Shown: positions 11,005 through 32,616 of the stretch, in pieces
How positions within the stretch are numbered: position 1 is the first letter of the stretch
Layout of the letters: each line of letters begins with the position of its first letter
The notes under the pieces: model-generated
What the model was told of the DNA's origin: nothing
The model's input: the letters and a program-made list of their open reading frames with translations, nothing else
The model's database searches: none
Source: Maridesulfovibrio sp.
GTDB taxonomy: Bacteria; Desulfobacterota; Desulfovibrionia; Desulfovibrionales; Desulfovibrionaceae
Assembly (NCBI RefSeq): GCF_963678865.1
Contig: NZ_OY787459.1
Coordinates: 3,402,501-3,466,500 of the forward strand
Direction of reading: 5' to 3'
Length of the DNA: 64,000 nucleotides
Made by a program: the position numbers and the translations under genes

Positions 11005-11021
11005 ACTTGGATTTTATGATG

Positions 11022-17353: not shown

Positions 17354-17368
17354 ACTTGGATTTTTAAG

Positions 17369-17416
17369 TGGTCGGAGCAGGAGGATTTGAACCCCCGGCA
17401 TCTTGCTCCCAAAGCA
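17369..17416 (-). repeat. tRNA-Pro(UGG) 3'-half fragment (attachment-site copy 3)
   Basis: Matches the intact tRNA from CCA to just past the anticodon loop (CCCAAAGCA). It is the junction of elements B and C. Confidence 0.9.
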
Positions 17417-17463
17417 TGGTAAAATTGCTATAACAGTTGAAATAATTGAGCTTTATTTTGCTT

Positions 17464-17528
17464 GGTCAACATTTTTTCAGTGGTGTTATAGGGGTGTTGA
17501 ACCTCTTTGGTTCACCAAAATGTTGACC
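17464..17528. repeat. element left-end repeat (copy LE3)
   Basis: Identical over 65 bp to 14986-15050, including the 12-bp terminal inverted repeat GGTCAACATTTT / AAAATGTTGACC. It lies 48 bp inside tRNA fragment 3. Confidence 0.88.
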
Positions 17529-17651
17529 GGAATAGTGGTCAATTTTTCTCACTGATTCTGGGGCTCGTGATTTTATGAAAACCGTATTTATCGTATTTGA
17601 AGAAATAGAAAAATAATGTGTGAACGAGTTCCTCGTATTGAGTTTCTTTGC

Positions 17652-18338
17652 CTAGTTTTCCTGCATATCTACCCATAAATGGTGTAAAGTAATAATTGAA
17701 TCATTTGTTCTTAAGTGTTCAGATTTTATTCGAGCAGTCCTTTTGTCAACGTCGCTCTCAAGTTTTGACAACTTTTCATCAGCAGACCACGCAAGGTCAC
17801 TGGAGGTTGTTGTTAATTCGTCAATGTATCCATTTATTGTATTATGAAAATGCAAAAAGCTGTCTCGCTGAACATAGCCAATCATCCCTGCTACGTTTTG
17901 ATCAGCACCGTGAAGTCTCAATTTATATCGCTGAATACCACCGGAAGCTTTGTCCTCGCCTGTTACATACTCGCGTTTTCTAGACGATGAAGGAGCTGGA
18001 AGTCGTTTAGCTTCAAATGTGGTTATAACTTCATACTTTGAGTGATAAGTCCCGGCAGAAATGAGCTGTTTTGTTGGCTTTGCAGCCATATCAACTCGGC
18101 GTCGGGATGCTTGATGTTGCTCGTGATGAAAAAGAAAAGCCTCCTCACCAGCAGCTTCTGCATTCAGAAAAGTGCAGAACTGCTCATTCAACAACTCTTC
18201 AGCTTCAACAGTCTTATCTCTTTCTAAGTCATCCCGCCAAAGAGAAAGACTGCTGTACACAAAGTCTATTACCCGATTTATTAGGAGGTTTTTTAGATAG
18301 GAGGGAGGTTTACCTACTTTTGCATTCAACTCAATCAT
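17652..18338 (-). CDS. restriction-system partner protein, putative nuclease subunit
   Basis: A 228-aa protein encoded immediately after the methylase gene (ATG one base beyond its stop). The centre reads YEVITTFEAKRL, a strand with an E-x-K pair as in PD-(D/E)xK nuclease cores, then ASGGIQRYKLRL and NVAGMIGYV. I associate the pattern F/E-x-KR, GIQRY, GMIGY with small proteins encoded beside restriction enzymes. The N-terminus is helical and the C-terminus may form a coiled coil. ATG at 18338 (GGAG upstream) is preferred over an internal ATG in the methylase at 18365. Likely the cleavage subunit of the system; the assignment is inference. Confidence 0.6.
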   Translation of the reverse strand: MIELNAKVGKPPSYLKNLLINRVIDFVYSSLSLWRDDLERDKTVEAEELLNEQFCTFLNAEAAGEEAFLFHHEQHQASRRRVDMAAKPTKQLISAGTYHSKYEVITTFEAKRLPAPSSSRKREYVTGEDKASGGIQRYKLRLHGADQNVAGMIGYVQRDSFLHFHNTINGYIDELTTTSSDLAWSADEKLSKLESDVDKRTARIKSEHLRTNDSIITLHHLWVDMQEN

Positions 18339-18339
18339 G

Positions 18340-21174
18340 CTAGTGGTCTCCGTCCAAAACATCACTTAAGACATCGTCTGCGTCCTTCAGTGCTGTTGAG
18401 CGTATCCAATAACGAAGACGGTCTGGCTTTATAAAGATGAGCATGTCTTCATCATATAGACGAATGATACGAGTTGTATAAAATGTTTCGCTATGCGACT
18501 TGAAAATTGCTGATTTTATTTTTTCAGACCAACCATCATCAATTAATTTCTTAGTGGCATTTCCTTCAAAAGAAAATGCTTGAAACAGGAGTCCGTTAGA
18601 TGCTTCACTCCCACATACAGAGACTTTTGGAAAGACACTTCTTAGCACTCTCAGAAATGTTGCTTGGTAAGTATTCAGTGCGGTTTTATCTACACTAGAA
18701 GTTAATAATTTTGAAGTCTGTCCGCGGCGTACATATTCTGCAAGGTAGTCATTTATATCATGAATGATTTCTTCTTCCCACGGAGCCAAAGCCCATTCAT
18801 TGTCTACTGGCCATGGTAGTCGGCAGATTTCACTCATAAGAGGAGCGGTGGCTTTACCTACAAGAATTTGAGAACCCAAAAGGAAACAGCTAGCTTTTAG
18901 TTTCCTTCGGTTAGAAATAAAAAAATTGCGGAATTGTTGCAACTGAGCAGAATGTTGCGGTTGTCCATAGATTCCAATAATTTTGTCTTTGTAAGCCAAA
19001 GCCCCTTCATCCCAATAAGCGCAAGGCAGATTTGCGTTCTCTTTGATTAAGACAAGTGGGCCACGAAATCTTTCTTCAGAATATGGTGTGTCGAACAACT
19101 TTGCCTTTACGGTACTAAGTAAACACGGATCAATTGCGTCTGATTTAAACGTTGTTGTTTCAAGTAATTGTTTTCCTGTAAGCCAACTTGCATGATGTTT
19201 GGCTTTTTTATCACCTGCAATATACCCTTCGCCTAATTTACAACCTATCCTAGCAACTTCATCTGATAGTGTTGGTAACTGACTTAATTTTTTGGCTAGA
19301 TTAAGGGCTCGTCCTCCACCAAGCAAATTTGCTCTCCATATCCAATGAATGCTACGAGCATCGTCCAATGATACATAATGATGGTCATAATAATCAAGCT
19401 CAAAACTGATGCGTCCTTTTGCTGTCTGTGTTCTACGAAACGTCCAGTGCTTTATCCTGTGATCTTCATCGGGATTTTTTGAAGTAACTAATAAAGCGAC
19501 AATCTTAGGATCTGCTCCTTCAAATAAACCTCTAATTGAAACAAAATCTAAAACGGTATCGATTTGGACCGATTCAAAAAGTTCTGCACGAAACTGTTGA
19601 GTTTTCTCGTTATAAAGCACACCAGCCGGTTGAATTAGGCAGGCTTTTCCTGACTTAGCTAAATATGACTGACAGCATCGTTTCAAAATGTAGTAAGCAA
19701 TTTGTTTGTCTGGAATGGACTCCATGCTCTCTAACGATTGGCGCATGGCAGTGGTCATTTTAGATTTAAATGGAGGGTTGCCTATGATGACATCGAACCC
19801 TTTAGCACCTGACGTCTTTTGAATTGCTCGAGAAATCGCATGGGCGAAATCGCCTACGAATAAATTCTGCTCTATCATTGTATCAAAACGCAGATCATTC
19901 CATATGATTTCAGGTTGAAGGGCATCGCAAATAGCCAAAGCTAAACTAAAGGCTGTTAAATGCACTGCTTCTTCTTGGATTTCAATCCCAAAAATTGTAT
20001 TTTTTAAAAGCTTCTTTAGTATTTGTGGCGTAGGTCTTTTCCAATTATTTTTAGAAAGCCAAGCATAAATGAGCCTTCGAAATGCAGCCACAAGGAAAAC
20101 ACCTGATCCACATGTTGGATCAAGAACAGTCTCATCGCCTTGAATATTTTTTAGAGGCAAAATCTGATCTAAAAGCAAATTGACAAGAAATGGTGGCGTA
20201 AACACAGCTCCATTGTCTTTGTCTGCAAAATATTGATATATGTGACTCAAAACTTCTACCGGGATGTGTTTGAAAGAATATATGTCCCAGAAGTAGAGTT
20301 GGCCCTTCGAGTCATAGTTTGCTTCAACGACTTCTGCCAGTTTGCGAAGTGTGCTCTCGTCAATTACCATTGCGTCTTGATCAAGAGTGAAGATGTCCCC
20401 ATTGAATTTATTTTGTAATGCCAGAAACATCTTTCGAACACTATCAACGTTTGCAGATTTTAATACGTCTAAAAAGGATGTAGCGTTTTCGTGATATGTT
20501 GAAAACCAATTACGAAATGCAGAGGGGAAAACTCCCCTGTCTTCGAGGTATTTAATAAGAAGCGTTAAGAGTAAAAGGCGACGAGCTGCAGGATTTTTTG
20601 AACCTTCTAGTTTTCTATCCGCCATCTTAACTTTATCGATCAAGACTTTATGTGCAGCATTATCACGATCTATTAAATGAAGATTACGTTTGTCTTCCCA
20701 AAAGGTTCCATCCGCAAGCCGGTATGATGAATACTGGTCAAACTGACATTGATCTAATCCTGTTGCAATATCACCAATTATTTCGATTCGTTCAGCGGGA
20801 GAATATTTCCATTCATTTTTGTTCGTTACTGTTTTTCCAGCAGCACAGGAAAATATGTCAACGTGGTTGTTCCAGTCAACATACAGCAGGGGGGTTGCGC
20901 CACTCAGCCACAGTTCGTGATGCAAATCTTTAATCTGATCTTGCGAAAAAGTTTCATCTGCATTTACGACGACATATGCAGCAACTTGAGATGAACGACC
21001 ATCAGAAAATCTTCTAAAGAAAATGTAGTCAATATTCGAGCACAAAAAATACGCTTGACGAATAGCTATTTGTTCGTCAAGCGGCAATAAAGTCGATGGT
21101 GAATTTGACACCTTTTCGAGCCCTGGAGGAGCTGTCTCTTGTGTTAAGTGAAGGTTTGCAAGATACTGGTTCAT
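18340..21174 (-). CDS. N6-adenine DNA methyltransferase, Eco57I/type IIG-like
   Basis: A 944-aa restriction-modification protein. Methylase motifs: motif X FTPPFLVNLLLDQIL (about 325-339), motif I VLDPTCGSGVFLV (350-362) and motif IV VIIGNPPF (462-469), the NPPF tetrad of N6-adenine enzymes. An N-terminal domain of about 300 residues precedes it, and a C-terminal target-recognition-like region of about 400 residues follows (ending LRYWIRSTALKDADDVL). The layout resembles type IIG enzymes, but I do not see a clear PD-(D/E)xK nuclease in the N-terminus; the neighbouring 228-aa protein may supply it. Expected role: defence of the element or host against foreign DNA. Start ATG 21174. Confidence 0.85.
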   Translation of the reverse strand: MNQYLANLHLTQETAPPGLEKVSNSPSTLLPLDEQIAIRQAYFLCSNIDYIFFRRFSDGRSSQVAAYVVVNADETFSQDQIKDLHHELWLSGATPLLYVDWNNHVDIFSCAAGKTVTNKNEWKYSPAERIEIIGDIATGLDQCQFDQYSSYRLADGTFWEDKRNLHLIDRDNAAHKVLIDKVKMADRKLEGSKNPAARRLLLLTLLIKYLEDRGVFPSAFRNWFSTYHENATSFLDVLKSANVDSVRKMFLALQNKFNGDIFTLDQDAMVIDESTLRKLAEVVEANYDSKGQLYFWDIYSFKHIPVEVLSHIYQYFADKDNGAVFTPPFLVNLLLDQILPLKNIQGDETVLDPTCGSGVFLVAAFRRLIYAWLSKNNWKRPTPQILKKLLKNTIFGIEIQEEAVHLTAFSLALAICDALQPEIIWNDLRFDTMIEQNLFVGDFAHAISRAIQKTSGAKGFDVIIGNPPFKSKMTTAMRQSLESMESIPDKQIAYYILKRCCQSYLAKSGKACLIQPAGVLYNEKTQQFRAELFESVQIDTVLDFVSIRGLFEGADPKIVALLVTSKNPDEDHRIKHWTFRRTQTAKGRISFELDYYDHHYVSLDDARSIHWIWRANLLGGGRALNLAKKLSQLPTLSDEVARIGCKLGEGYIAGDKKAKHHASWLTGKQLLETTTFKSDAIDPCLLSTVKAKLFDTPYSEERFRGPLVLIKENANLPCAYWDEGALAYKDKIIGIYGQPQHSAQLQQFRNFFISNRRKLKASCFLLGSQILVGKATAPLMSEICRLPWPVDNEWALAPWEEEIIHDINDYLAEYVRRGQTSKLLTSSVDKTALNTYQATFLRVLRSVFPKVSVCGSEASNGLLFQAFSFEGNATKKLIDDGWSEKIKSAIFKSHSETFYTTRIIRLYDEDMLIFIKPDRLRYWIRSTALKDADDVLSDVLDGDH

Positions 21175-21379
21175 GGCTATTTTTGTAGGAGATTTAAAGG
21201 ACTATGTCATCTTGTTTTTTCTGCCATAAGTTTATTTGGATTTTAGTTCATTGTTCTGGCAAACAAAAAACTTTTTTCGTAGGGTGTCCATATTTTAACA
21301 TTATTCCCTCCAACCTGATCCACAGAATCACCCAAAAAATCACCAGCCCCTCGTGACCAAATCAAACTAATCAGGATAA

Positions 21380-21420
21380 CCTTCAATTTTCATGATTATT
21401 TAACAATATGAAATTGAAGG
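21380..21420 (+). promoter_or_regulatory. inverted repeat that covers a ribosome binding site
   Basis: CCTTCAATTTTCAT (21380-21393) is nearly complementary to ATGAAATTGAAGG (21408-21420). The right arm includes part of the GAAGGAG ribosome binding site of the gene at 21431. It could be a translational switch or a regulator operator. Confidence 0.55.
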
Positions 21421-21430
21421 AGATTTACTG

Positions 21431-21829
21431 ATGCACGGACTTGACGATTCACTGTTCAACGTACTCTTTTCGTATACTCGGAAACAAGCAATCGAAGATG
21501 GAAATTTAATCGATGTGACCGAACAGGCTAAACAGACCGGATTCAAGGTTTCAGTAGCGGTGTCGCTGAACCTGTATGCGAAATACATCACTCCACCAAG
21601 CGGACTTGAAGGCGAAGGGCAGTCCGTTACTGGTAGGCTTCACGATCTATTAACCATGTGCTTGTTGGCGATGCAGGATAAGCTGGACCAGAGCAGGATA
21701 AGCTTTCAGGTCTTATTTTTAATGCAGTCACAGCCGAGGACCCTTGAAGAAGTAGAAGTGATCTGCCAGTGCGGGCCAGACGATGATATGAAGCCCTGTA
21801 TTACTCTGATGCTGCCGGATGATGATTAG
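21431..21829 (+). CDS. DUF6573 family protein
   Basis: A 132-aa cytoplasmic protein of a family found mainly on plasmids and integrative elements. Features: an N-terminal SYTRKQAIEDGNLIDVTEQA block (residues 14-33), the GFKVSVAVSLNLY segment, a GRLHDLLTMCLLAM helix near residues 68-81 and an acidic C-terminus ending CGPDDDMKPCITLMLPDDD. Its molecular role is not established to my knowledge. A strong GAAGGAG site precedes ATG 21431, within an inverted repeat. Confidence 0.8.
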   Translation: MHGLDDSLFNVLFSYTRKQAIEDGNLIDVTEQAKQTGFKVSVAVSLNLYAKYITPPSGLEGEGQSVTGRLHDLLTMCLLAMQDKLDQSRISFQVLFLMQSQPRTLEEVEVICQCGPDDDMKPCITLMLPDDD

Positions 21830-21908
21830 CTCGCGGGTAAAATGAATAAACAGGACGGAAAAGCGTTCTGTGTTATTTTTGGGGATTTGGGGCTGGTTGT
21901 CTCAGTAA

Positions 21909-22232
21909 CTACCGAGAAATGATCCGAGTGATACCGTAAAGCTGGCGCAGGGTGTTATTGTCAGCTTTGGAAATATAGTCGCTCATGAGTTTTCGTAGGT
22001 CTTCTGTGGACAACTGGAACTCTGCGGTATCAAACAGCTCGGCTACTGATACACCAAGTGCCAGTCCTATTTTTCCCAGAACATTGATGGTCGCATTGGC
22101 CTTCCCACGCTCTACATCTCCTAAATACTGCACAGATATTCCGCACAGTTCAGCAAGCTTGTCCTGTGTCAGTCCTTGAGATTTTCTCAACGATTTCAAA
22201 TGTTCACCAAATACGCTTTGCAAGTCGTTCAT
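21909..22232 (-). CDS. XRE-family transcriptional regulator
   Basis: A 107-aa repressor-type protein. An N-terminal Cro/CI helix-turn-helix occupies residues 7-65: LKSLRKSQGLTQDKLAELCG, then SVQYLGDVERGKANATINVL. A short C-terminal helical domain (residues 75-107) probably mediates dimerisation. It is divergent from the LamG-flagellin gene, with about 215 bp between them, so it is a candidate regulator of that gene or of the element. GAGGATACA precedes ATG 22232. Confidence 0.9.
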   Translation of the reverse strand: MNDLQSVFGEHLKSLRKSQGLTQDKLAELCGISVQYLGDVERGKANATINVLGKIGLALGVSVAELFDTAEFQLSTEDLRKLMSDYISKADNNTLRQLYGITRIISR

Positions 22233-22449
22233 TGTATCCTCCAGATGTAAACCTAAAGGATAGACGAGAATACTGAGTTTAAAAATAAAGTATGGACTTC
22301 TTTTTGCAGATAAACATCAACTATAGACGATGTTTCGACCTAAGATGTCGACTGAAGCGTTGTTTTTCGTTGGTTTGATGAGCTTTCTGGAACTGGAATT
22401 GGAGTGTGAGCAAGGAAATTATTTCCTGTGTAGCTGGAGTGGATAAAGA

Positions 22450-23958
22450 ATGAGCTTGACCATAAATCATAATCTGATGGCGGGTAGTGCTGCCCGTAAT
22501 CTGAGTACCCACTATGTAGAGTTGGGTACATCAGTACGGAGACTGTCTTCAGGACTGCGAGTAGGAACAGCAGCAGATGATGCAGCTGGCCTTGCTGTGC
22601 GTGAGTTGATGCGCTCAGATATTAGGTCAATTAACCAAGGGATCAGAAATGCCAACGATGCGGTATCCATGATCCAGACTGCCGATGGAGCATTGCAGGT
22701 CATTGATGAAAAGCTGATCCGGTTGAAGGAGCTGGCTACACAGGCTGCAACGGGTACGTACAATGCTGATCAGCGACAGATAATCGACTCAGAGTTTCAG
22801 GCTATGAAAGCTGAGATTGATAGGATCGCAAAAGCAACCGACTTCAATGGCATTTATTTACTTAAAGGTGGGATAAGTTCTGAATATCTCGTGCCGGAAT
22901 ATCTGTCTGACGACTTTATGCATTTCACCTTTAATGGGACATATACTGGCGAACATGGCGAAGTTTCCTCGCCGTTAACAACAGCATCGTTTACAGGGAG
23001 CGGACCGGAAGGGAGTAGTGCCGTTCGGGTTGTTAATAATTCGGTATCGCTCCCAGAAGTTGATTGGACGACTTTTGGAAACGAAGCGACTCTATCAATC
23101 TGGGTCAATGAAGAGAATATTGTCAGTCCTTTTCAGAATTCCTATGTGACGTTTAACGGTGGTTTTGTTCATATGCACCGGGATGGGGGCAACCTCCAGT
23201 ACAAGATAGGCAACAATACGCTGACAGTTCCATTCGATAACGCAGATAGGGGGCAATGGGTTCAGCACACGATGGTTTTAGATGCAGACCATTTCAGCGC
23301 ATATCAGAATGGTGAACTCGTTGCTCAAACCAGCACTGTGACACCAGTTGGAACACCAGCAGTTCTTCGCCCAACGGAGAATGCAATTGCTAGAAACTAT
23401 TGGAGTCATAGCCCTACTGACCGGCGACAAGCAGCCAGAACAACCGGAAGCTTTGACGACTTGAGATTCTACACAAAAGCTCTGGATGAAGAAGGCGTTG
23501 AGCAATTAAACAACTATACTCCTGAAGGGGATCATGAATTTGCGACAGAAGAGCAGGACCTTCTAGTCCACTTCGGGCCGGGTAACGACAGCGCAGAAGA
23601 CTATTATGGTGTCGGTATCGGTTCAGCGACTACAGATTCATTGGGCATTTCATCAACTGGCGTGAATACCCAAGAACGTGCTCAAAATGCTCTGGAAGTA
23701 ATTGATGATGCCATGATCAAGAAAGATAAGATCAGAGCTCATCTGGGAGCCATGCAGAATCGGCTGGAGAATACGATAACCAACCTATCCATTCAGGCCG
23801 AGAACTTACAAGCATCCGAATCCAGAATATCCGATGTTGATGTGGCAACAGAAATGACCGAGTTCGTGCGCCGACAAATTTTAACTCAATCCGCTACTGC
23901 TATGCTGGCCCAAGCCAATAGTCTACCGAAGATGGCTATGCAGCTGATTGGCGGGTAG
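22450..23958 (+). CDS. flagellin with an inserted LamG-like jellyroll domain
   Basis: A 502-aa flagellin-family protein. Residues 1-140 are a standard N-terminal D0/D1 region (NLSTHYVELGTSVRRLSSGL, AADDAAGLAVRELMRSDIRS, DFNGIYLL). Residues 400-502 are the matching C-terminal region (AHLGAMQNRLENTITNL, SRISDVDVATEM, ending AMQLIGG). Between them, about residues 153-357 form a LamG/concanavalin-like domain: SIWVNEEN, then RGQWVQHTMVLDADHFSAYQ and SFDDLRFYTKALDEEGVEQL. An HFGPGNDSAEDYYGV stretch typical of Desulfovibrio flagellins follows. The domain would be displayed on the outer face of the filament, possibly binding glycan. No signal peptide, as expected for type III export. GGAG precedes the ATG. 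Confidence 0.88.
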   Translation: MSLTINHNLMAGSAARNLSTHYVELGTSVRRLSSGLRVGTAADDAAGLAVRELMRSDIRSINQGIRNANDAVSMIQTADGALQVIDEKLIRLKELATQAATGTYNADQRQIIDSEFQAMKAEIDRIAKATDFNGIYLLKGGISSEYLVPEYLSDDFMHFTFNGTYTGEHGEVSSPLTTASFTGSGPEGSSAVRVVNNSVSLPEVDWTTFGNEATLSIWVNEENIVSPFQNSYVTFNGGFVHMHRDGGNLQYKIGNNTLTVPFDNADRGQWVQHTMVLDADHFSAYQNGELVAQTSTVTPVGTPAVLRPTENAIARNYWSHSPTDRRQAARTTGSFDDLRFYTKALDEEGVEQLNNYTPEGDHEFATEEQDLLVHFGPGNDSAEDYYGVGIGSATTDSLGISSTGVNTQERAQNALEVIDDAMIKKDKIRAHLGAMQNRLENTITNLSIQAENLQASESRISDVDVATEMTEFVRRQILTQSATAMLAQANSLPKMAMQLIGG

Positions 23959-24043
23959 AGCAGACTGGTCTTGAAGAACAACTCCACTTTTCCCCTATAT
24001 GTGAAAATTTGAAAATGGTCTTGCTTAGTTTTCTGACTTGTTT

Positions 24044-24553
24044 GGGACCTCGGCTGTTTGCTCGGTTTTAATGTAAGATATAGTTTAGTAATTGACTTTA
24101 AAAATAATCTATAGACTATATTTAGGTTGGTTGCTATAAACTATATCCTAGTATTTGATCATGAAAAACGCTTTTAGTTTGTATTTTCGGAAATGTTTTG
24201 TCACAGAGGCGTGTTGTTTTCGAATACCAAATAATAGATATATAATCAATAAAAGGAGGTGTTTATGGATACCAAGACATGTCACAAGTGTGGTGCTGAA
24301 AACCTGTTGAAACAGAAGAATTGTTATAATTGTGGAGAGAAGCTTTCGGTTGGCTCCAATATTCTGTATCTGTTCAAAATTGGTGCTATCATTCTGGTCG
24401 GTTATGTAGTGGCTAAATTGTTTGGCTTTAGCTAATGGTATGGTGATCTCCCAGAACTTGGATGTTTTGGGAGAAGCCATTTGTTTTATTGTATTGAACG
24501 GCAGGTTGGCTGGCCTGTTTGCTCTTCGTGAATCGTCCGGGACCTCGGCTGTT
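24044..24553 (+). repeat. 15-bp direct repeat flanking a small gene
   Basis: GGGACCTCGGCTGTT occurs at 24044-24058 and again at 24539-24553. The interval contains only the 56-aa zinc-ribbon gene. The outer flanks show limited further similarity (TGTTTGCTC). It may be a trace of a cassette insertion or a duplication. Confidence 0.6.
24265..24435 (+). CDS. zinc-ribbon membrane micro-protein, 56 aa
   Basis: Residues 5-25 hold two CxxC pairs (CHKCG and CYNCG) forming a zinc ribbon. Residues 33-55 are a single hydrophobic helix (LYLFKIGAIILVGYVVAKLF) that should anchor the protein in the inner membrane with the ribbon in the cytoplasm. A very strong AAAAGGAGGTG ribosome binding site lies 5 bases before the ATG. 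The function is unknown. It sits just downstream of the flagellin gene between two copies of a 15-bp direct repeat. A weak inverted repeat (24448-24473) follows. Confidence 0.75.
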   Translation: MDTKTCHKCGAENLLKQKNCYNCGEKLSVGSNILYLFKIGAIILVGYVVAKLFGFS

Positions 24554-24882
24554 ACTGCTTAATAGATGGTTGGCTATTCCGGTTTCTGTGGTGTTCATGA
24601 TAACGGCAGCTTCACTGAATCAGGGCCACTGTCCAGTTTCCTAGATCCAAATCCCCGGCCCGACCCCACCGCCAGCTCCTGCTCCAGCGTCCATTAAAAT
24701 CCTTCGCACAAAACAGCCCCTTCCTGCGCATTTTAAAATTTTTATGATGGTTTGGTTATCCCCTGAAATTAAAACCTTGGAAACTTGGAATGTACGATTT
24801 GGAAGTATATTTTATCTAGAGCTGGTACGTGCTTTTCTCCTGAAATCTAAAGATATTATATTTAAAACATCAGGAGGCTAGT
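24554..24882. other. spacer with a C-rich patch
   Basis: About 330 bases without a gene. A C-rich, higher-GC stretch around 24640-24725 contrasts with the A/T-rich surroundings. The strong AGGAGG site for the next gene lies at 24871-24877. Confidence 0.4.
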
Positions 24883-25338
24883 ATGGCTAAAAAGCAGAAT
24901 GAAAATGTAGAAGTTAAGGCGAAGAAAGGTTTCACAGAGTCCCGTTACAATCCGACCCTGCTGCGGCAGATGTGTGAGAATAACGTGGACGCTGCAACTG
25001 CCAAGCAGAAGCTGGGCCTTAGCTCTCTACAGAGTTTGAGGCAACATCTTATGCGCCTCAGCGTGACTGATAACCAGCTACGGACACTACCGGAATTGTA
25101 TTCGCGTTCCAGCAGTACAATCAGAATCGGTAAGTATGGCCTGAAACTATCTGCTAAGAAGCTGGAGAGTCTCGGAGACTTCCCGGTAGGCTCAGAGTTT
25201 ACCGTTGAAGTTGAAGATGGAAAGATCATTCTTGAAATGATTTCCGCAGGCGGTGCCGAGGACCCGGCAGATGATGCTGTTACCGATCATAAAGGCGAAA
25301 GCGGAACTGAAGCACCTGAAGAAGCCAGTGAAGCTTAA
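24883..25338 (+). CDS. AbrB/SymE-like protein, 151 aa
   Basis: I do not recognise the full family. Residues 15-75 are helical and basic (KKGFTESRYNPTLLRQMCEN). Residues 80-118 read TIRIGKYGLKLSAKKLESLG, then FPVGSEFTVEVEDGKIILEM, the pattern of a SpoVT/AbrB-type swapped-hairpin barrel also used by SymE. This suggests a DNA-binding regulator or antitoxin-like protein. The last 30 residues are acidic and disordered. The ribosome binding site TCAGGAGG is strong. It is followed by its own terminator, so it is monocistronic. Confidence 0.55.
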   Translation: MAKKQNENVEVKAKKGFTESRYNPTLLRQMCENNVDAATAKQKLGLSSLQSLRQHLMRLSVTDNQLRTLPELYSRSSSTIRIGKYGLKLSAKKLESLGDFPVGSEFTVEVEDGKIILEMISAGGAEDPADDAVTDHKGESGTEAPEEASEA

Positions 25339-25343
25339 CGAAA

Positions 25344-25378
25344 TGGAGTCACAGCAAATAATATGTTGTGGCTCCGTT
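25344..25378 (+). terminator. Rho-independent terminator
   Basis: GGAGTCACAGCA (from about 25344) pairs with TGTTGTGGCTCC (to about 25365) and is followed by a T-rich tract. It ends the 151-aa gene's transcript. Confidence 0.7.
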
Positions 25379-25960
25379 TTCTATTTTTGCAGCAGTGGTA
25401 CCCTGAAGCTGAACGTGCGAGAATGTCTACCAGCCAAATTTGATGGACCCCATCAAAAAATTGCATGACAGTTATTTCAAAACTATCCGCATGGACAATT
25501 CAGACTGGTCCAGAGATGGACTCTGGCGTATCGCTGATGAATCTCCAGACTAATAACCCTTTGGGGTAGTCCTTCCTTCTTATAGAATCCATCCTTATCT
25601 CGATATTTTTTTAGCCATGACGAACCCGCAGCAGTGACAACGCACAGTGTTTTTTCTTGCGTTGATTATTGTTCACGGTGCGTAGTTTTGGCTATCTCAT
25701 ACAGTATGAAATACTTGTTTCATGCCGTACCTCATTTTATTTTAAAAATTTTAATATGGATATGACGTACGTGTAAGCCAGCTCAGTTGGCTTGAGAAAA
25801 AACATCTTATCATACATCGCCATTCATCATTCAAAAAAAGTAAGCAATTTAAGCAACTTGAGACAAAAGTGGTCATCTTAATCAGTTCTGATTTAATTGT
25901 TTGTAATGACTGACTTTTTTTTGGAAATGAATCGAGTATGAGCAAAAAATAGGAGAAGTC
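25379..25960. other. long spacer with a possible gene remnant
   Basis: About 580 bases. A 36-codon ORF at 25443-25553 (MDPIKKLHDSYFKTIRMDNS at its start, then a Trp-rich stretch) reads like protein but has no ribosome binding site, so it may be a fragment of a lost gene. The rest (25560-25950) is A/T-rich and holds no gene I can support. An AGGAGAAG site for the next gene is at the right edge. Confidence 0.4.
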
Positions 25961-26836
25961 ATGGATTATGTACCTGTAGCGGAAAAGATCTTGAAGCATG
26001 TGATTAACAATGGCCTCGAAGGCAGAGTTGATGAGCTGGTTTCAAGTGATCTTGATGAACAATCTCTACTGGCCTCATTGTCTGAGGTCTTCACTGAGAT
26101 TGAACAGAGTCTGGGTAGAACTGCACTTATTGATGATATTGCGAAAGCAATCCTGAGTGTCTTATCTGGAAAGATATTACTCAAGGCCAAACAGTTGATT
26201 GGTCATGGCAAATGGAGGTTCTATGCAATGGAGCATTTCGATATGAATGAACATGAAAGAAATATTCGCATGAAAGCTGCAAGCATTATAGGGATTGAAA
26301 ACTATTTCTTTCTAGGCTGGAAAAGAATCTCAGCTTTAACTCAAGCAACAAAGAGATCAAAACAACCTGATCCATTCAAAGAAATTGTGAAAAATATAAG
26401 TTACACAATTGATCCATATCATCCAGATGATTTTGAGCACTTTAATACTCTGGTAAATGGATACATCATCTGGGCCAATAAGATTGGCAACCTGAAGAAT
26501 AAAATAAAATTTGAACAGATTGTTGATGCAGTTGAATGTGAAGTTGAATTTGATGGTGCATTTATTAAGAGACTTGAAAAGTCTAATAATCCTGCCGTTT
26601 CATTATACAACTATATTGACTTTGAAACTGTTAAAGCAACTACTCATTGCACTCGTAACGTAAAGTCAAAAAGAAGAGAACTAGCAACCCTTATTAACAA
26701 ATTATCTTTTGTGGGTTCAATGGTCATTGAAAATGCTGATGATTATTTGAAAAAGGTAACTATTGATAGTCTTGATAAATGTGCTGGGGTTGTGAATAAA
26801 CTGCTTGATATGAAACGTACTGAATTAGGAGTTTAA
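25961..26836 (+). CDS. unrecognised 291-aa protein upstream of the TGT/DpdA-like gene
   Basis: I do not recognise it. It appears almost wholly alpha-helical, with no membrane segment. Notable stretches are GHGKWRFYAMEHFDMNEHER (about 87-106), which faintly recalls DUF3102-type phage proteins, and a C-terminal coiled-coil-like region (KSKRRELATLINKLSF). A strong AGGAGAAG site precedes ATG 25961. The next gene begins 1 bp after its stop, so the two form one operon and are probably functional partners. A role as specificity or DNA-recognition partner of the downstream base-exchange-like protein is speculation. Confidence 0.6.
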   Translation: MDYVPVAEKILKHVINNGLEGRVDELVSSDLDEQSLLASLSEVFTEIEQSLGRTALIDDIAKAILSVLSGKILLKAKQLIGHGKWRFYAMEHFDMNEHERNIRMKAASIIGIENYFFLGWKRISALTQATKRSKQPDPFKEIVKNISYTIDPYHPDDFEHFNTLVNGYIIWANKIGNLKNKIKFEQIVDAVECEVEFDGAFIKRLEKSNNPAVSLYNYIDFETVKATTHCTRNVKSKRRELATLINKLSFVGSMVIENADDYLKKVTIDSLDKCAGVVNKLLDMKRTELGV

Positions 26837-26837
26837 T

Positions 26838-27773
26838 ATGCGTTTTTTTCAAAGTTCTATTACAACGGCAATTGTCTCAGAGCTTCGTATTCTTGCTCCT
26901 GATCTGAGGGTCAATGCCTTGCGTTCTTATAGAACAGATGGACCTGAAACACTAAGACTTTTAGAATCTGGCTTGGTTCAAACAGAAGATCATATCTTAG
27001 ATTCAGGAGTCTGGGGTTTGACCCAAGGGACATTGAAACACAAGAGCAATGTCAAAATTTATGCAAAGTCCTTGATGCGCATTGGCAGTAAGTTTCGCTT
27101 CTATATGAATTTCGATGAAGTCTTCATGGATGAAGGCACTGAAGAGTTCGATGATAAGGCCATCGCAACCAACCTGAAGAATCAGAAATATCTTGAAGAT
27201 CAAGGCTTGAATCCTGTTCCAGTCATTCACAGTCTGGATGATGATGAAATTGGCTATTACATCGATATTAAAGAAGCTAAGGGGTATGAATACATAGCAA
27301 TTGGTTCAACTCAAGCCAAAGTCCAAAAAGAACGTAAGAAGTTGGAAAAAGCTATCGATCGCTTGTATGCGGCAGGCTACAAGATTCATCTATTCGGAGT
27401 CGGTAGCTACAAGAATCTGACAGGTTTGAAGATATGGTCTTGTGATGCATCTTCATTTGCACAATGGGCCAGTTGTGGAAGAGTTGTGTTTCTTTCCGAA
27501 CAGCAGAGCACTAAGAAGGAGATCACATTTTCCTTTCTGTCTCACGATGATGCTGGTAATCCTGTTGAAGATTTTATTGATGACCATAAAGAAGGCTCTG
27601 CAATACTTGCTGAATATCAAAAGAAGATTCTTGATCCGCTGGGTTTGAATATTGGAACGCTGTATTCAGACCCAATTTCAAGGATGCTTGCGAATTGTTA
27701 CTACTACTGCCAGCTTGAAAAGGTTCTGACTGAAGAGCAAATCAAAGCTGGAGTGAAATTCAACGAGTGGTAA
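26838..27773 (+). CDS. tRNA-guanine transglycosylase/DpdA-superfamily protein
   Basis: A 311-aa protein with a TGT-like TIM-barrel pattern. LDSGVWGLTQG (54-64) matches the strand bearing the first catalytic Asp. A repeated beta-alpha layout follows (VPVIHSLDDDE near 127-137, YEYIAIGSTQ near 150-159). KIHLFGVGSYKNL (182-194) and WSCDASSFAQW (200-210) match the HxFG and S-x-DSxxW ends of the TGT barrel. TGTs swap guanine for a 7-deazaguanine in tRNA, while DpdA relatives do so in DNA. At 311 aa it is short for either and lacks the C-terminal four-Cys zinc site of bacterial Tgt. It is co-transcribed with the 291-aa gene; a terminator follows. Substrate unknown. Confidence 0.65.
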   Translation: MRFFQSSITTAIVSELRILAPDLRVNALRSYRTDGPETLRLLESGLVQTEDHILDSGVWGLTQGTLKHKSNVKIYAKSLMRIGSKFRFYMNFDEVFMDEGTEEFDDKAIATNLKNQKYLEDQGLNPVPVIHSLDDDEIGYYIDIKEAKGYEYIAIGSTQAKVQKERKKLEKAIDRLYAAGYKIHLFGVGSYKNLTGLKIWSCDASSFAQWASCGRVVFLSEQQSTKKEITFSFLSHDDAGNPVEDFIDDHKEGSAILAEYQKKILDPLGLNIGTLYSDPISRMLANCYYYCQLEKVLTEEQIKAGVKFNEW

Positions 27774-27781
27774 TATTATCT

Positions 27782-27818
27782 GGTGGGGAAGAATTTTTTC
27801 GATCTTCCTCACCTTTTT
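27782..27818 (+). terminator. Rho-independent terminator
   Basis: GGTGGGGAAGA (27782-27792) pairs with TCTTCCTCACC (27803-27813), with one mismatch, followed by TTTTT. Confidence 0.75.
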
Positions 27819-27844
27819 ACGTTTTAGGTCTTGATTATGTAATT

Positions 27845-27889
27845 GGTAACGGCAGAACCAACAGGTCATTCATCGGTCTTGCCGTTACC
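27845..27889. repeat. 10-bp stem hairpin upstream of the replicase
   Basis: GGTAACGGCA (27845-27854) pairs perfectly with TGCCGTTACC (27880-27889) around a 25-nt loop that itself contains an ACC/GGT pair. It has no T run. It is a candidate structured RNA or replication-origin element. Confidence 0.55.
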
Positions 27890-27961
27890 GCCCACAGCTT
27901 TTCGATTGCTACGTATCTATTATATCTTTAAAAATTTGCCACATCCTCAAAGTACAAGACC

Positions 27962-28042
27962 AGCTCATTCTGAAAATGCTTCTGGACAATCCTGAATCAG
28001 ACTAGCTCATCCTGAAAATGCTTCTGGACGATTCTGATTCAA
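27962..28042 (+). repeat. two tandem direct repeats (iteron-like), about 42-bp period
   Basis: Copies at 27962-28000 and 28004-28042 both begin AGCTCAT-CTGAAAATGCT and contain TTCTGGAC. They differ at only a few bases. A weaker third unit seems to follow near 28047-28068. Their position about 100 bp upstream of a replication initiator gene suggests an origin or an autoregulatory site. Confidence 0.65.
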
Positions 28043-28138
28043 CATGCCTCAGCCTGATGACCGTTCTGCGTTGAACTCTTTTAATAATACAATTAGTTAA
28101 AGATATAAATGGGATAAATCCAGAACAGGAGGAATCCC

Positions 28139-29188
28139 ATGAAAATAGTTGGGCCAGAAGAACGTTTGTATAGACATTTAAGTCCACGTCCCAGAGCTGC
28201 TGATGACAAGAAAGGTCCGTGGTATATTTACGGAAAAGATCAAGCTCTGACGTACAGATTTATTCAACTTCCAAATCAGAAACGGAAATATATATGTTTG
28301 GATTTGGACTATGAAATGGCCGGTGCCAGATGGATGGATGAAGTCATGCTGGAACCGACCATTACCATAATTAATCCAGAGAACACTCATGCCAAGTACA
28401 TGTTTGAACTCAAGAGTCCTGTACTGTTTCCATTAGCAAATGGGAATAGTGCCAGTTGGATAAGCCAGAAAGCTATCCGGTTCTATCACAACGTCAAGAA
28501 AGGTTTGGATGCAGTTCTTGACGGTGATACTGGATACACAGGACATGCGATAAACAATCCGTTTAATCCGCACTGGAAAGTTCACTGGAGAGATATTCAA
28601 TACGATCTTCAAGAGTTGTCAGAATATATTCCGTATGAGCATAAAGAGTTCGTTTTGCCTGATGATGAAATCTGCGAAGGTCGTGAGAAGCTAATGTTTC
28701 ATCACTGCCGGAAGATCGCGTACCGTATGGTGAAGAACTATTCGACCTTTGAAGACTTCCGTGCTGCCGTTGAAAAACTTGTCTTAGATTTTTATCATAA
28801 CACAGCTAAGCTTATTGAAAGTGATCATGAATTAACCATCACAGAAGCTTACAGTGTCATCAAATCGATTAGCAACTGGACTTGGAATAAGAAAAATGAT
28901 CCCAATTTCAAGCAGTATATGTATAACCGTGGAGCGATGAATTTAGGCTCCATTGGATATGATCTGCCGGAAGATGAGCTTGAGCAGGAACGTAAACATC
29001 GTCAGTCCATTGGTGCTCACTACACAAATCGTCAGCAGGTTAATAAAACTCGTCATAAAATATTGAATGCTATTACAACCTTGAAAGCAAACGGAGAAAA
29101 AGTAACACGAAAAAAGATCCACAATATCACTGGTCTTGGACAATCAACTTTAAATAACTATAAAACCATCATCAATGACAATAAATAA
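28139..29188 (+). CDS. ColE2-type plasmid replicase (Rep with PriCT-like region)
   Basis: A 349-aa replication initiator/primase. The N-terminal catalytic block follows the ColE2 replicase pattern: a YICLDLDYEMAGARW stretch with the acidic DLD pair (55-57), PTITIINPENTHAKYMFELK (73-92) and then KSPVLF. CEGREKLMFHHCRKIAYRMV (about 181-200) resembles the PriCT region (gRN-lF--cR--aY). The C-terminus (about 300-349) looks like a helix-turn-helix for origin binding (KVTRKKIHNITGLGQSTLNNY spans it). Family enzymes prime replication at their own origin. A GGAGGAATCC site precedes ATG 28139. Direct repeats and a hairpin upstream may be the origin. Confidence 0.78.
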   Translation: MKIVGPEERLYRHLSPRPRAADDKKGPWYIYGKDQALTYRFIQLPNQKRKYICLDLDYEMAGARWMDEVMLEPTITIINPENTHAKYMFELKSPVLFPLANGNSASWISQKAIRFYHNVKKGLDAVLDGDTGYTGHAINNPFNPHWKVHWRDIQYDLQELSEYIPYEHKEFVLPDDEICEGREKLMFHHCRKIAYRMVKNYSTFEDFRAAVEKLVLDFYHNTAKLIESDHELTITEAYSVIKSISNWTWNKKNDPNFKQYMYNRGAMNLGSIGYDLPEDELEQERKHRQSIGAHYTNRQQVNKTRHKILNAITTLKANGEKVTRKKIHNITGLGQSTLNNYKTIINDNK

Positions 29189-29692
29189 TATCTATATTAT
29201 ATAAAAGTCTAATCAATAATACCTATTAACTTTAGTGTTATAATGTATCGTTAATTACTTTATATATATGATATATAAATTGAATTTTGTGTATATCGTA
29301 TATTATTAATATATTAATTACCAATTATATATATTATATTTACCATCTTCCCACCACCTCCCCCTATTCTTTTCGCCACTATCTAATAAAGCATTTGGGC
29401 ATTTTTTATAGTCTGTACTGAGTCTGATGAATGAGAATAAAGAACTATTTCTTTTTATTATGTTGATTAGTCTGCTTAGAATTATATTTAGTAACATATT
29501 ATAAAGATATATAGTACCAATGTTGACCAGTGTAGCTACATCTTTAACATTGGAGGTGCTATGGAAGATGCTAAAAGTAAAAGTCATTCAAATACTTTTG
29601 CGGATAGTTAGATCACCATTGACCCGTGAAATGCTTAAGTCTGCTTTAATCGTATTCATACGAAGAAAAGTATAATTGGGCATTATCTGAAG
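29189..29692. other. very A/T-rich region with a 16-codon leader ORF
   Basis: 29190-29340 is almost pure A/T with ATAT runs, suitable for strand opening near the replicase gene. At 29561-29611 a 16-codon ORF (MEDAKSKSHSNTFADS) follows a strong GGAGGT. Its ribosome binding site is partly within an inverted repeat (CCAATGTT at 29517-29524, AACATTGG at 29546-29553). It may be a leader peptide. No larger gene is supported. Confidence 0.4.
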
Positions 29693-29726
29693 AAGGCTGC
29701 TCTTCATGGGCAGTCTTTTCTTTTTT
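29693..29726 (+). terminator. Rho-independent terminator
   Basis: AAGGCTGC (29693-29700) pairs with GCAGTCTT (29710-29717, with a G-T pair), followed by a T-rich tract. It lies downstream of the 16-codon leader ORF. Confidence 0.6.
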
Positions 29727-29981
29727 ACGTTCTTAGCTCTTTTGAACGGCAAGTCTTCTGCACCGTCAGCCTCGTCATCTACTTTGAACCAATAGAGATA
29801 TTGGTATCCACCGAACCAAAGTACGTTTTTTAGGAAAATCGTACATTTAGGTGTTCAATCCAAAAAAATCTACGAACTTGAACGGTTTACAGGCGAAGCT
29901 GAAAATTCAGTTTCATCCGTGCCGTTTTGAATGTTTGGTTTTACCATTTTAAAAACAATTTCGTACATTAAAGGAGGAGAA

Positions 29982-30539
29982 ATGCGAGTAGAGCCTATCC
30001 GGTCGAAGAAGGACATTAAGAACATCAAGCGGCTGTTGCAGGACCATCCCCGGAATCTGCTGCTGTTCGTGATGGGCATTAACTCAGGGCTGAGAACGCA
30101 GGATATTCTGACATTGCGCGTTAAGGATATGCTGGACCAAAAGGTCGGTGACCGGATCGTGGTCACTGAGAAGAAAACCGGAAAACAGAATGTCATTATC
30201 ATCAACAAAGAAATCGCAAAATCCTTTCAGAACTATCTAGAGCATTGCCAGCCACATGAAGGTCAATTCCTATTCATGAGTCGCAAAGGCAAAAACTACC
30301 CCATCACCACCTACAGAGTCACAGGGCTCATGAAAGAATGGACCAGTGCAATTAACTTGAAGGGAAATTATGGCGCACATAGCTTACGGAAAACTTTCTG
30401 CTATCAGCAGCGGGTTGAATTCGGTATCCCATGGGAATTATTAAGCAAACGTCTTAACCACTTTAGTCCTCGAACGACCCAAATTTATATAGGCGTCCAA
30501 AATTCTGAAGTGGAGGAGATTCTGCTGAACAACATCTAG
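29982..30539 (+). CDS. minimal tyrosine recombinase (catalytic domain only)
   Basis: A 185-aa site-specific recombinase. The catalytic set is complete: Arg38 in GINSGLRTQDIL, Lys65 in TEKKTGK, His133 and Arg136 in GAHSLRKTF, His160 in LNHFS and Tyr169 in TTQIYIG. It lacks the N-terminal core-binding (SAM-like) domain of normal integrases. The start is set at ATG 29982 because AAAGGAGGAG precedes it; the ORF extends 17 codons further upstream without a ribosome binding site. It may resolve element dimers or act with the full-length integrase. A terminator follows. Confidence 0.85.
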   Translation: MRVEPIRSKKDIKNIKRLLQDHPRNLLLFVMGINSGLRTQDILTLRVKDMLDQKVGDRIVVTEKKTGKQNVIIINKEIAKSFQNYLEHCQPHEGQFLFMSRKGKNYPITTYRVTGLMKEWTSAINLKGNYGAHSLRKTFCYQQRVEFGIPWELLSKRLNHFSPRTTQIYIGVQNSEVEEILLNNI

Positions 30540-30550
30540 ACTGGCTCGTA

Positions 30551-30583
30551 GGAGCATCTGCATACCAGTTTTGCAGGTGCTCC
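30551..30583 (+). terminator. hairpin terminator of the minimal recombinase gene
   Basis: GGAGCATCTGCA (30551-30562) pairs with TGCAGGTGCTCC (30572-30583), followed by T-rich sequence. It resembles the GGAGCA stem after the main integrase (32231-32252). Confidence 0.75.
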
Positions 30584-30643
30584 TAGTCTTTTGGTGTAAT
30601 CAGAAGATAATTTATCAAAATGACATTTTAGCAGAACAAGAAA

Positions 30644-30800
30644 GTGTTTGGGTTGAGAATCGTAAGTTTTAAATAGTTAGATGTCTTTTATTTTAATTGG
30701 TTAATGATCAGAATTAAGTTTTGAGTGTCGTTTTTTGGGGTGCTAGTTCATAACGAAATTGAAGCTGTTCAAGTAGAAGTGTGTTTGAGAAGTGTTTGAG
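30644..30800 (+). repeat. GTGTTTGAG direct repeats upstream of the excisionase-like gene
   Basis: GTGTTTGAG occurs at 30781-30789 and 30792-30800, one helical turn (11 bp) apart. A related GTGTTTGGG lies at 30644-30652. The helical phasing suggests binding sites for a regulator or for Xis/Int. Confidence 0.45.
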
Positions 30801-30937
30801 GTGTATATGATTAGATGATGAATCATAGCTAATACTCAAAATGACTATAAGTGCTCAATTTAAAAAGCTATACATGGAAAATTGAGGCTGCTATAACTAG
30901 AGTCATGAGCGAAAATTACACCCCAGAGGGACCATAC

Positions 30938-31144
30938 ATGACAACTCAGGCAGCCGCAGAATATGCGGACTATTCCTATGATCATTTTCGGGGTCTGGTG
31001 AAAAAATATCAAATACCCAGACGCGGGCCGAACAATAATCGTTTCGCTGTGTCTGACCTTGATCGTTGGATGAGCAACCCGAACTCCTTTTGTGAAGCAT
31101 CTGTTCCCACAAGGACTAGGAAGATCAAAAAAGTGAATATGTAG
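30938..31144 (+). CDS. excisionase-like helix-turn-helix protein
   Basis: A 68-aa MerR/HTH_17-type DNA-binding protein: TTQAAAEYADYSYDHFRGLV, then the wing KKYQIPRRGPNNNRFAVSDL and DRWM. This is the fold used by many excisionases. ATG 30938 has AGAGGG 8 bases upstream; ATG 30905 or a GTG at 30851 would give longer forms without a ribosome binding site. The basic tail ends RTRKIKKVNM. It is 7 bp upstream of the integrase on the same strand, the usual xis-int order, so it probably directs excision of element C. Confidence 0.75.
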   Translation: MTTQAAAEYADYSYDHFRGLVKKYQIPRRGPNNNRFAVSDLDRWMSNPNSFCEASVPTRTRKIKKVNM

Positions 31145-31151
31145 GAGTAAT

Positions 31152-32180
31152 ATGAGTACACATCAACGTAAGAACGGTACTTGGTTTGTCCGTTATCGTG
31201 AAAATGGTAAGCAGGTGAACCATACCTGTGGCAAAGGTGAAGCTGGTCGCCTTGAAGCAGAACGCCTAGATGCAGAGATCAAGGCGAAAAAGGACCTCGC
31301 TAAAACTGAAGTCTTGGTGTTCCCGGAAGACCAGAAGAAGATTGAGTATTTTGACGACCTTGCTGTCCAGTACTTTGATGATGTTGCTGCTGACGGATGG
31401 AAGCAGTGGAGAAAGGATTGGAGTGTTCTTCTGGATAACAATCTGACTGAAGAGCTGTCACAGATTCCTATCAGTCGCTTGACCCAGAGTTTCATCGTCA
31501 ATTTGCTGAAGAAGAAATTCAAAGAAGCATCTCCAAGAACCCGTGGTAAGTATGCTCGCTATCTCAAGACCATGTTCAAGTGGGCAGAGGAACGGGGACT
31601 CATTGATAAGAATCCGTTGCAGTTTCTGAAGGGGAAGAAGTATCCCAAGAAGCCTCTGAACATTGATATGGAGACAATCAAGCTTATCAAAGCCGAGGCT
31701 AGTGAGCATCTGGCATTTGCGATTGATATTTTGTGCAATACCGGTGTGCGTACTGGTGAAAGCGAGCTTCTTTCCATGAAGTATAGCGACATCAACTGGA
31801 AGCAATCTTCCATACGGGTGTTCGCCAAGAAGACTAACAGCTACAGGGTACTGCCGCTGAAGCCGGAGTTTTTGGAGAAGCTTAAGGAGAAGCAGAAGAC
31901 TAGTGAATCAGGGTTTCTGGTCGAGTACAAGGGGCGTCCTGTTAAGTCTCTTGGTAATAGTTTCAGAAGGGTTCGTAGAAAGCTGAAACTCAATGAGAAG
32001 ATTGTTTTGTACGATCTTCGCCACTGGTACTGCACCAGCCTGTTATCCGGTGGTGCTCCAGTAAACACCGTGGCGCAGCTCATGGGGCATTCTTCGGCGA
32101 AGATGACTCTGGACGTGTACGGGCATGTCATTCCGGGCGATACTGCCAAGGCTTTGCAATACCTGCCGGACATTGGATAG
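31152..32180 (+). CDS. int: phage-type tyrosine integrase of element C
   Basis: A 342-aa integrase. An N-terminal arm-binding-like region (residues 1-60) is followed by a core-binding SAM-like domain (about 65-165) and a catalytic domain. Catalytic residues: Arg200 in NTGVRTGE, a Lys in KKTNSYR (about 227), Arg290 in LYDLRHWY, His313 in LMGHSS and nucleophile Tyr323 in DVYGHV. The box-II His is Tyr (YDLR), as in many integrases. AGGAG precedes ATG 31152. The gene lies 360 bp from the intact tRNA-Pro, as expected for the integrase that targets it, and may also mobilise element B, whose ends match. Confidence 0.93.
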   Translation: MSTHQRKNGTWFVRYRENGKQVNHTCGKGEAGRLEAERLDAEIKAKKDLAKTEVLVFPEDQKKIEYFDDLAVQYFDDVAADGWKQWRKDWSVLLDNNLTEELSQIPISRLTQSFIVNLLKKKFKEASPRTRGKYARYLKTMFKWAEERGLIDKNPLQFLKGKKYPKKPLNIDMETIKLIKAEASEHLAFAIDILCNTGVRTGESELLSMKYSDINWKQSSIRVFAKKTNSYRVLPLKPEFLEKLKEKQKTSESGFLVEYKGRPVKSLGNSFRRVRRKLKLNEKIVLYDLRHWYCTSLLSGGAPVNTVAQLMGHSSAKMTLDVYGHVIPGDTAKALQYLPDIG

Positions 32181-32230
32181 CTGCTGAAATCAGAACAGAT
32201 TAAATTGACCGCCTATTGCATGCGGTAATG

Positions 32231-32256
32231 GGAGCATCAGAAATGGTGCTCCTTTT
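32231..32256 (+). terminator. Rho-independent terminator of the integrase gene
   Basis: GGAGCATC (32231-32238) pairs with GGTGCTCC (32245-32252), followed by TTTT. Confidence 0.75.
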
Positions 32257-32523: not shown

Positions 32524-32539
32524 ACTTGGATTTTTATGA

Positions 32540-32616
32540 TGGTCGGAGCAGGAGGATTTGAACCCCCGGCATCTTGCTCCCAAAGCAAGCGCGCTACCAG
32601 ACTGCGCCATGCTCCG
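32540..32616 (-). tRNA. tRNA-Pro(UGG)
   Basis: A full 77-nt cloverleaf including an encoded CCA. The acceptor stem CGGAGC pairs with GCTCCG; the D arm has GCGC...GCGC; the anticodon stem is CTTGC/GCAAG with loop TTTGGGA and anticodon TGG; the T arm contains GTTCAAATC. It is the attachment target of the island: its 3' half is repeated three times to the left. Because the integrated element supplies its own 3' half, the gene stays functional. Confidence 0.97.

Follow-up and report, generated by a model that had tools for sequence, protein, structure and literature searches.

Flagellins carried by mobile elements have been described in print, as far as the available text of the sources goes, from a few enterobacterial cases: the FR-phi prophages, plasmid pBSSB1 and the flkAB islet. 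In FR-phi, a temperate phage of Enterobacter carries a flagellin with divergent outer domains (FliCP) and, adjoining it, its own regulator (TldR), an RNA-guided TnpB derivative reported to repress the host fliC (PMC13418256). The linear plasmid pBSSB1 of Salmonella Typhi carries fljB-z66 and the adjoining regulator gene fljA-z66; the regulator is described as making the plasmid's flagellin dominant, and FljA-z66 is reported to prevent translation of fliC (PMC2652032). The flkAB genomic islet of E. coli, to which unilateral flagellar phase variation is attributed, combines an alternative flagellin with a neighbouring FliC repressor (PMC5422975). A likeness of another kind is offered by the flagellinolysins, in which a foreign globular domain occupies the variable region of a flagellin; that domain is a metallopeptidase, and the accessible portions of the two reports (PMC5595980, PMC7643111) mention neither a mobile element nor an XRE regulator.

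The locus described here lies in a 64,000-nucleotide stretch of a Maridesulfovibrio sp. chromosome (the window, meaning the whole stretch of DNA that was analysed). Like FR-phi, it joins a mobile flagellin with a divergent outer domain to an adjoining regulator. Unlike FR-phi, it has an XRE-type regulator on an element with a replicase and recombinases, and no TldR (nuclease-dead TnpB) adjoins the flagellin. It shares with pBSSB1 an element-borne flagellin and adjoining regulator, and with the flkAB islet an alternative flagellin on an island; pBSSB1, however, is a linear plasmid that is not integrated at a tRNA gene, and flkAB belongs to a different host. In their presumed mode of working the TldR prophages, the fljBA genes of pBSSB1 and the flkAB islet appear to be the closest known systems, with other regulators or other elements. 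These precedents had been overlooked in an earlier, sequence-only reading of the window. The foreign domain here is LamG-like rather than a peptidase, and a literature search, mostly of papers outside subscription and with XRE and flagellin not combined, returned no title or abstract opening on LamG-flagellins among the matches listed.

The flagellin and the element that carries it

The flagellin gene sits on an element of 15.2 kb (17364-32585) that is bounded by tRNA-Pro repeats (Table 1). Copies of the tRNA-Pro 3′ end (repeat family D2, 51 nt, 92-96% identical to the reference copy) start at 11015, 14886, 17364 and 32535; with four such copies between 11015 and 32585, three inserts are apparently stacked at one tRNA gene, and the flagellin element is the one from 17364 to 32585. 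In an Rfam scan of positions 10500-33000, tRNA was the sole match. With two tyrosine recombinases and, at either end, a direct repeat derived from the tRNA, this is a tRNA-targeting integrative element, in agreement with the sequence-only reading, which had also placed a divergent XRE gene beside the flagellin; the two genes are 217 bp apart. A neighbouring insert encodes an Rhs core fragment (window 12882-13979; TIGR03696, 1.3e-18).

Table 1. Features of the flagellin-bearing element, in window positions
Feature	Position	Strand	Basis
Left attachment repeat, copy of tRNA-Pro 3′ end	17364..17414		51-nt direct-repeat family D2
237-aa ORF overlapping 3′ end of IIG gene	17652..18365	-	ORF list
Type IIG restriction-modification-like protein, 944 aa, defence cargo	18340..21174	-	PADLOC REase_MTase_IIG 1.1e-35
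DUF6573 protein, element backbone	21431..21829	+	PF20213 1.6e-21; recurs in related elements
XRE/Cro-type HTH regulator, divergent from flagellin	21909..22232	-	PF01381 7.5e-16
Predicted sigma-54-like -24/-12 element (GG-N10-GC) upstream of flagellin	22293..22308	+	In 17/18 cassettes; host RpoN present
Alternative flagellin, 502 aa	22450..23958	+	Pfam; dN/dS about 0.06-0.08 in D0/D1
Variable insert with LamG/ConA-like domain	22885..23565 (Pfam match 23035-23496)	+	PF13385 1.1e-12; PDB 4qvs 6.7e-10
56-aa zinc-ribbon protein, hydrophobic segment by eye, downstream of flagellin	24265..24435	+	PF12773 1.3e-4, below cut-off
151-aa backbone protein (p24883)	24883..25338	+	Recurs 5′ of int1 in related elements
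Two backbone proteins, 291 and 311 aa; second (26838-27773) TGT/DpdA-like	25961..27773	+	phrog_887 2.1e-16 (second); recurrence
Replicase-family protein	28139..29188	+	PF03090 2.1e-21
Tyrosine recombinase int1	29931..30539	+	PF00589 7.7e-22
Tyrosine recombinase int2, adjoining tRNA	31152..32180	+	PF00589 3.4e-20
Right attachment repeat (32535-32585) overlapping tRNA-Pro(TGG) (32540-32616)	32535..32616	-	ARAGORN, repeats, Rfam tRNA

The 237-aa ORF at the left end has no match in NCBIfam, PADLOC or Pfam, and a literature search on DUF6573, mostly of papers outside subscription, gave nothing. The second of the two adjacent backbone proteins resembles phage TGT/DpdA proteins and recurs in the element family. 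Relatives of the 56-aa zinc-ribbon protein, found by tblastn, lie downstream of a flagellin at three loci (L044, L066, L105), beside a flagellin fragment at L159 and without a flagellin at L160. No structural phage family of PHROGs was matched by ten window proteins. Three scans of viral contigs gave pattern matches in two (83 and 113 stretches), none of which encodes a relative. The flagellin has matches in 12 of 50,697 records of a phage collection and in 189 of 72,556 records of a plasmid collection; a single phage match (28.7% identity) and no plasmid match spans 80% or more of the query. The best matches in both collections are all below 60% identity. PHROGs does hold one family with flagellin-like ends (phrog_16088, 7.1e-50).

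The flagellin ORF begins with ATG, and both ends of its product exceed the curated Pfam cut-offs: Flagellin_N (PF00669) at residues 5-140 (E 5.3e-36, 124.2 bits against a cut-off of 26.6) and Flagellin_C (PF00700) at residues 415-500 (E 2e-25, 89.3 bits against 23). By its D0/D1 ends, which are intact as had been claimed, the protein is a bacterial flagellin, predicted to assemble into a filament. The ends enclose an insert of about 227 residues (about residues 146-372), inside which Laminin_G_3 (PF13385) matches residues 196-349 (E 1.1e-12, 48.8 bits against a cut-off of 27.6) and spans 146 of 151 profile positions (model positions 4-149). The LamG assignment of the sequence-only reading is therefore borne out, whereas its size of about 205 residues corresponds exactly to neither the 154-residue match nor the insert. 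A profile of four LamG-flagellin inserts, compared with solved chains, matched 4qvs best (6.7e-10), then 5hon, named as an extracellular arabinanase (2e-7), and tetanus toxin chains (about 1e-4). The Pfam match and the profile match to 4qvs support a jellyroll fold; an AlphaFold2 model from the single sequence without an alignment (pLDDT 42.7) was too poor for the fold to be read.

The chromosome (4.35 Mb) has nine Flagellin_N matches, which on reading of the sequences are six flagellins and three FlgL-like proteins; about 168 kb separate the flagellin described here from the next one. Four of the six are short host flagellins of 285-294 aa whose D1 halves are 45-53 aa apart, and the other two are long. 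A second locus at about 3.85 Mb encodes DUF6573, an XRE protein (93% identity), a flagellin of 500 aa and relatives of the recombinases int1 (78%) and int2 (46%), and is 84% identical at the DNA level to window positions 21315-22853. The ends of its flagellin are 83-84% identical to those of the window flagellin; its insert is unrelated to the LamG insert by blastp and follows a conserved hairpin motif, which the LamG insert precedes. Over D0/D1 the two flagellins differ by a dN of about 0.11-0.13 and a dS, near saturation, of about 1.5-1.7, a ratio of 0.06-0.08; rows L045 (C-terminus) and L119 (N-terminus) were left out of the dN/dS comparison since their frames were offset and the values meaningless. 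By this estimate the D0/D1 ends are under purifying selection. The ends of the second locus were not found within 60 kb, which holds no tRNA gene and whose repeats never enclose both the flagellin and the recombinases. Genes of the DndC, DndD/PbeC and SspH/HerA type lie close to it (PADLOC).

Recurrence and transfer across the order

The XRE-flagellin pair recurs across the order Desulfovibrionales, which the sequence-only reading had missed. Profile A1, built from seven XRE proteins, matched 61 places in 42 of 348 genomes of the order at E≤1e-22. Among the best 28 of the 61 places, some of which are close relatives of one another, 17 are paired with a divergent flagellin no more than 430 bp away, eight have none in the flank and three are cut by a contig end. 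The construction of the profile bears on this share of 17 in 25 evaluable loci, since all seven of the profile's rows are among the best 28 and six of them have a flagellin. The spacing is 178-228 bp in 16 of the 17 and 426 bp in G330. At least four of the other 33 places also have a divergent flagellin (G298, G235, G194 and G110, where it is broken in two ORFs). Some copies are decayed: besides the broken one in G110, G001 retains a C-terminal fragment. XRE and DUF6573 also occur without a flagellin, for example in G008 and in G010, whose XRE gene contains an internal stop. In a rough control, a contig profile search with the XRE alignment A4 that ran over other taxa and some short contigs, a flagellin was found at none of 79 loci among the matches listed, which are general XRE relatives. 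Among 297 genomes drawn phylum-wide, profile A4 (limit 1e-26) matched only the window's own genome; other known carriers are missing from the results listed for this draw, which makes it weak evidence for absence elsewhere.

The outer modules of these flagellins vary. All 19 long flagellins that were scanned have both flagellin ends; four have Laminin_G_3, five a weak CopC match, and 15 lack Laminin_G_3 at E≤0.01. By blastp their inserts fall into three groups and two singles, groups that may be over-merged through the shared hairpin; LamG is one of several inserts, a point missed by the sequence-only reading. The inserts of the cassette flagellins measure 176-457 aa, except in the truncated G007 (132 aa). 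One locus (L117, 4108-5976 and 6920-9064) has two long flagellins in tandem, with inserts of different blastp groups and one XRE gene adjoining. Full-length relatives of the LamG-flagellin at E≤1e-72, a limit that reaches close ones only, were found in five of the 348 genomes, and one of these (G283) lacks the LamG part in the alignment, which leaves four. Close LamG-flagellins are thus rare in the order, and the result that the sequence-only reading had named as refuting it, ordinary chromosomal homologues throughout, did not appear. Three of the four sit with backbone genes of the window element. The fourth (G057) has no element backbone gene within the surrounding 50-kb stretch; it is adjoined by JetC/JetD-like (Wadjet) genes (L045, 3531-10180).

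The element family is wider than the flagellin cassette. Relatives of int1 occur in 54 of the 348 genomes and in 19 of 59 genera. Forty stretches upstream of int1 sites were sampled, excluding sites at contig starts, sites already covered and some others; six are shorter than 15 kb, and the sample is no frequency estimate. Three hold a flagellin or its remnant: a 712-aa flagellin with divergent XRE (L172), a flagellin split in two ORFs (L193) and a C-terminal fragment (L159). A 281-aa ORF in L161, 27% identical over 90 aa to the flagellin N-terminus, was not counted because it is far from the backbone genes. The backbone DUF6573 - p25961 - p26838 - Rep - p24883 - int1 - int2 is found repeatedly, though many copies lack parts of it and the gene order varies somewhat; together with the three flagellins in 40 stretches, this makes the flagellin cassette one cargo among others. 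In 27 flagellin-free elements (alignment A5) the stretch from DUF6573 to p24883 encodes 77 proteins, mostly of replication-type families, with six PADLOC families, and it is for this reason that the flagellin slot is not claimed as a defence slot. Three of the 77 contain a sigma-54-activator-type AAA domain and one matches a single-subunit DNA-dependent RNA polymerase (PF00940, 6.5e-71).

Further flagellin elements have bounding repeats derived from tRNA-Pro(GGG) in G030, tRNA-Ala in G045 and tRNA-Val in G128. In all, four flagellin-bearing elements other than that of the window are bounded by tRNA repeats and hold an int1 relative. On the G128 element a secretin (L106, 12766-14940; PF00263, 1.9e-46) lies near a LamG flagellin, and on the G045 element a sigma-54-activator-type AAA protein (L069, 9150-10913) lies downstream of the flagellin. 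RT-Toprim-type reverse transcriptases are found near flagellin cassettes in two genera (L068, 1476-3233, PADLOC 6.1e-130; L070, 429-2225, 1.9e-127).

Between G334 and G024, two genomes of different genera, 29,336 bases (29.3 kb) can be aligned at 99.33% identity, with 178 mismatches and 19 gaps. The shared element carries a 688-aa flagellin and ends in both genomes at tRNA-Glu-derived repeats. The G334 flanks (about 2.2 and 2.5 kb) have no G024 match past the tRNA genes and, at the other end, a few short matches including the repeat; G334 also has about 15 kb extra between the element and the tRNA gene. Contamination of an assembly is a less likely source of the identity, given that the element ends exactly at the tRNA sequence in both genomes and that its flanks differ. 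The alignment is evidence of a transfer between genera of this sister element, as distinct from the window element itself.

The intergenic region

Of 18 intergenic regions between XRE and flagellin genes, 17 contain a GG-N10-GC motif with TTGC[AT], which in 16 of them lies about 49-60 nt from the XRE start, a conserved geometry; the regions are not independent, since several are closely related and the transferred element contributes two of them. Region by region, 0 to 13.5% of dinucleotide shuffles score as well or better. By this motif the cassette has a predicted sigma-54 promoter, and the host genome encodes sigma-54 (RpoN). One host flagellin (L002) has a sigma-54-like site, TGGCACGTCATCTGCT; a comparable site is absent at the other three host flagellins. 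A sigma-28 match reaches 14 of 16 positions for both cassette copies in this genome, a score attained by none of 200 shuffles, and for most other cassettes it is no better than shuffles. Sigma-54 is therefore preferred as the predicted factor, and for the two copies in this genome sigma-28 would also fit.

Nine of the 18 regions contain an inverted repeat, AGCAA-N(10-16)-TTGCT, that appears in at most 0.4% of shuffles per region and in eight of the nine ends in the -12 box. This repeat could be an operator; it is missing from both cassette copies in this genome. Exact matches to TATGGACTNNTTTTTGCA in the genome are confined to the two cassettes, and up to two mismatches give nine places, against four for the reversed pattern. 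None of the seven further places found in this genome search adjoins a host flagellin, so that there is no sign of the XRE protein acting on the host flagellin genes; in this the locus differs from FR-phi, for which repression of the host flagellin is reported (PMC13418256).

Possible roles of the cassette

The reading we favour, and consider probable, is that a filament-remodelling cassette travels as cargo of tRNA-targeting integrative elements in Desulfovibrionales. The element would import a flagellin whose D0/D1 ends are compatible with host assembly and whose outer domain is swapped for a large module, here LamG-like. The divergent XRE protein would control the promoter region that lies between the two genes and serves both, and host RpoN would drive transcription of the flagellin from the sigma-54-type promoter. 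Once expressed, it would copolymerise with the short host flagellins or replace them, and the new filament surface, from which a benefit may arise, would alter what phages, predators or surfaces encounter. More tentatively, such elements may be spreading exchangeable flagellin coats through the order, each with an XRE switch, a sigma-54 promoter and a swapped outer module, in such a way that acquisition of an element would re-coat the filament.

Other readings of the same locus have to be weighed. LamG/ConA-like folds are often glycan-binding, and the LamG face might serve adhesion, binding polysaccharide or protein on particles, algae or other cells, with the elements spreading for surface specificity rather than phage escape. 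The arabinanase chain 5hon among the profile matches is consistent with this, and several unrelated inserts would be expected if each had a different target. Against it stands the absence of Laminin_G_3 from 15 of the 19 long flagellins, and we regard adhesion as a possible but somewhat unlikely purpose of the elements.

Doubtful, too, is a role in defence, in which the filament coat would be swapped for the sake of the element so as to exclude flagellum-dependent phages. The type IIG gene of the window, the Dnd- and Ssp-like genes beside the second copy, RT-Toprim proteins in the G024 and G003 loci and the JetC/JetD-like genes beside the G057 LamG flagellin all point that way; defence genes, however, are common island cargo, and their proximity to a flagellin is accordingly weak as an argument. 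Five of ten further neighbours have no PADLOC match at E≤1e-10, and when 93 neighbours were scanned in bulk, no family among those listed accounted for more than two proteins. Phage attachment has been proposed, in the available text, as a selective force on flagellin surface regions (PMC7018530), but the FR-phi authors are reported to have screened 1144 phages without finding a flagellotropic one and to consider phage resistance unlikely as the main reason for their element flagellin (PMC13418256).

That the element simply caught an ordinary extra host flagellin, mostly silent passenger DNA with no selected function for the element, is improbable: flagellin matches are indeed present in 53 of 58 relatives, usually several in each, and a flagellin or remnant in only three of the 40 sampled stretches (one a fragment, one in two ORFs), but the recurrent XRE-flagellin pairing with its narrow spacing, the conserved promoter geometry, the purifying selection on D0/D1 and cassette inserts so much longer than those of the four short host flagellins speak against it.

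Spare flagellins with exchangeable outer domains and a regulator of their own, carried on elements, suggest that mobile DNA can re-coat the filament. If the cassette does remodel the filament, it would parallel RNA-guided flagellar remodelling with a protein as the regulator, and replacement of the filament coat would join restriction-like systems among the anti-phage offerings of mobile elements. Strains with and without the element would make selection on flagellin outer domains, whether by phages, adhesion or motility, testable. Given a conserved XRE-flagellin cassette, a recent transfer between genera and unrelated outer modules, flagellar remodelling by mobile DNA would have arisen outside the enterobacteria too.
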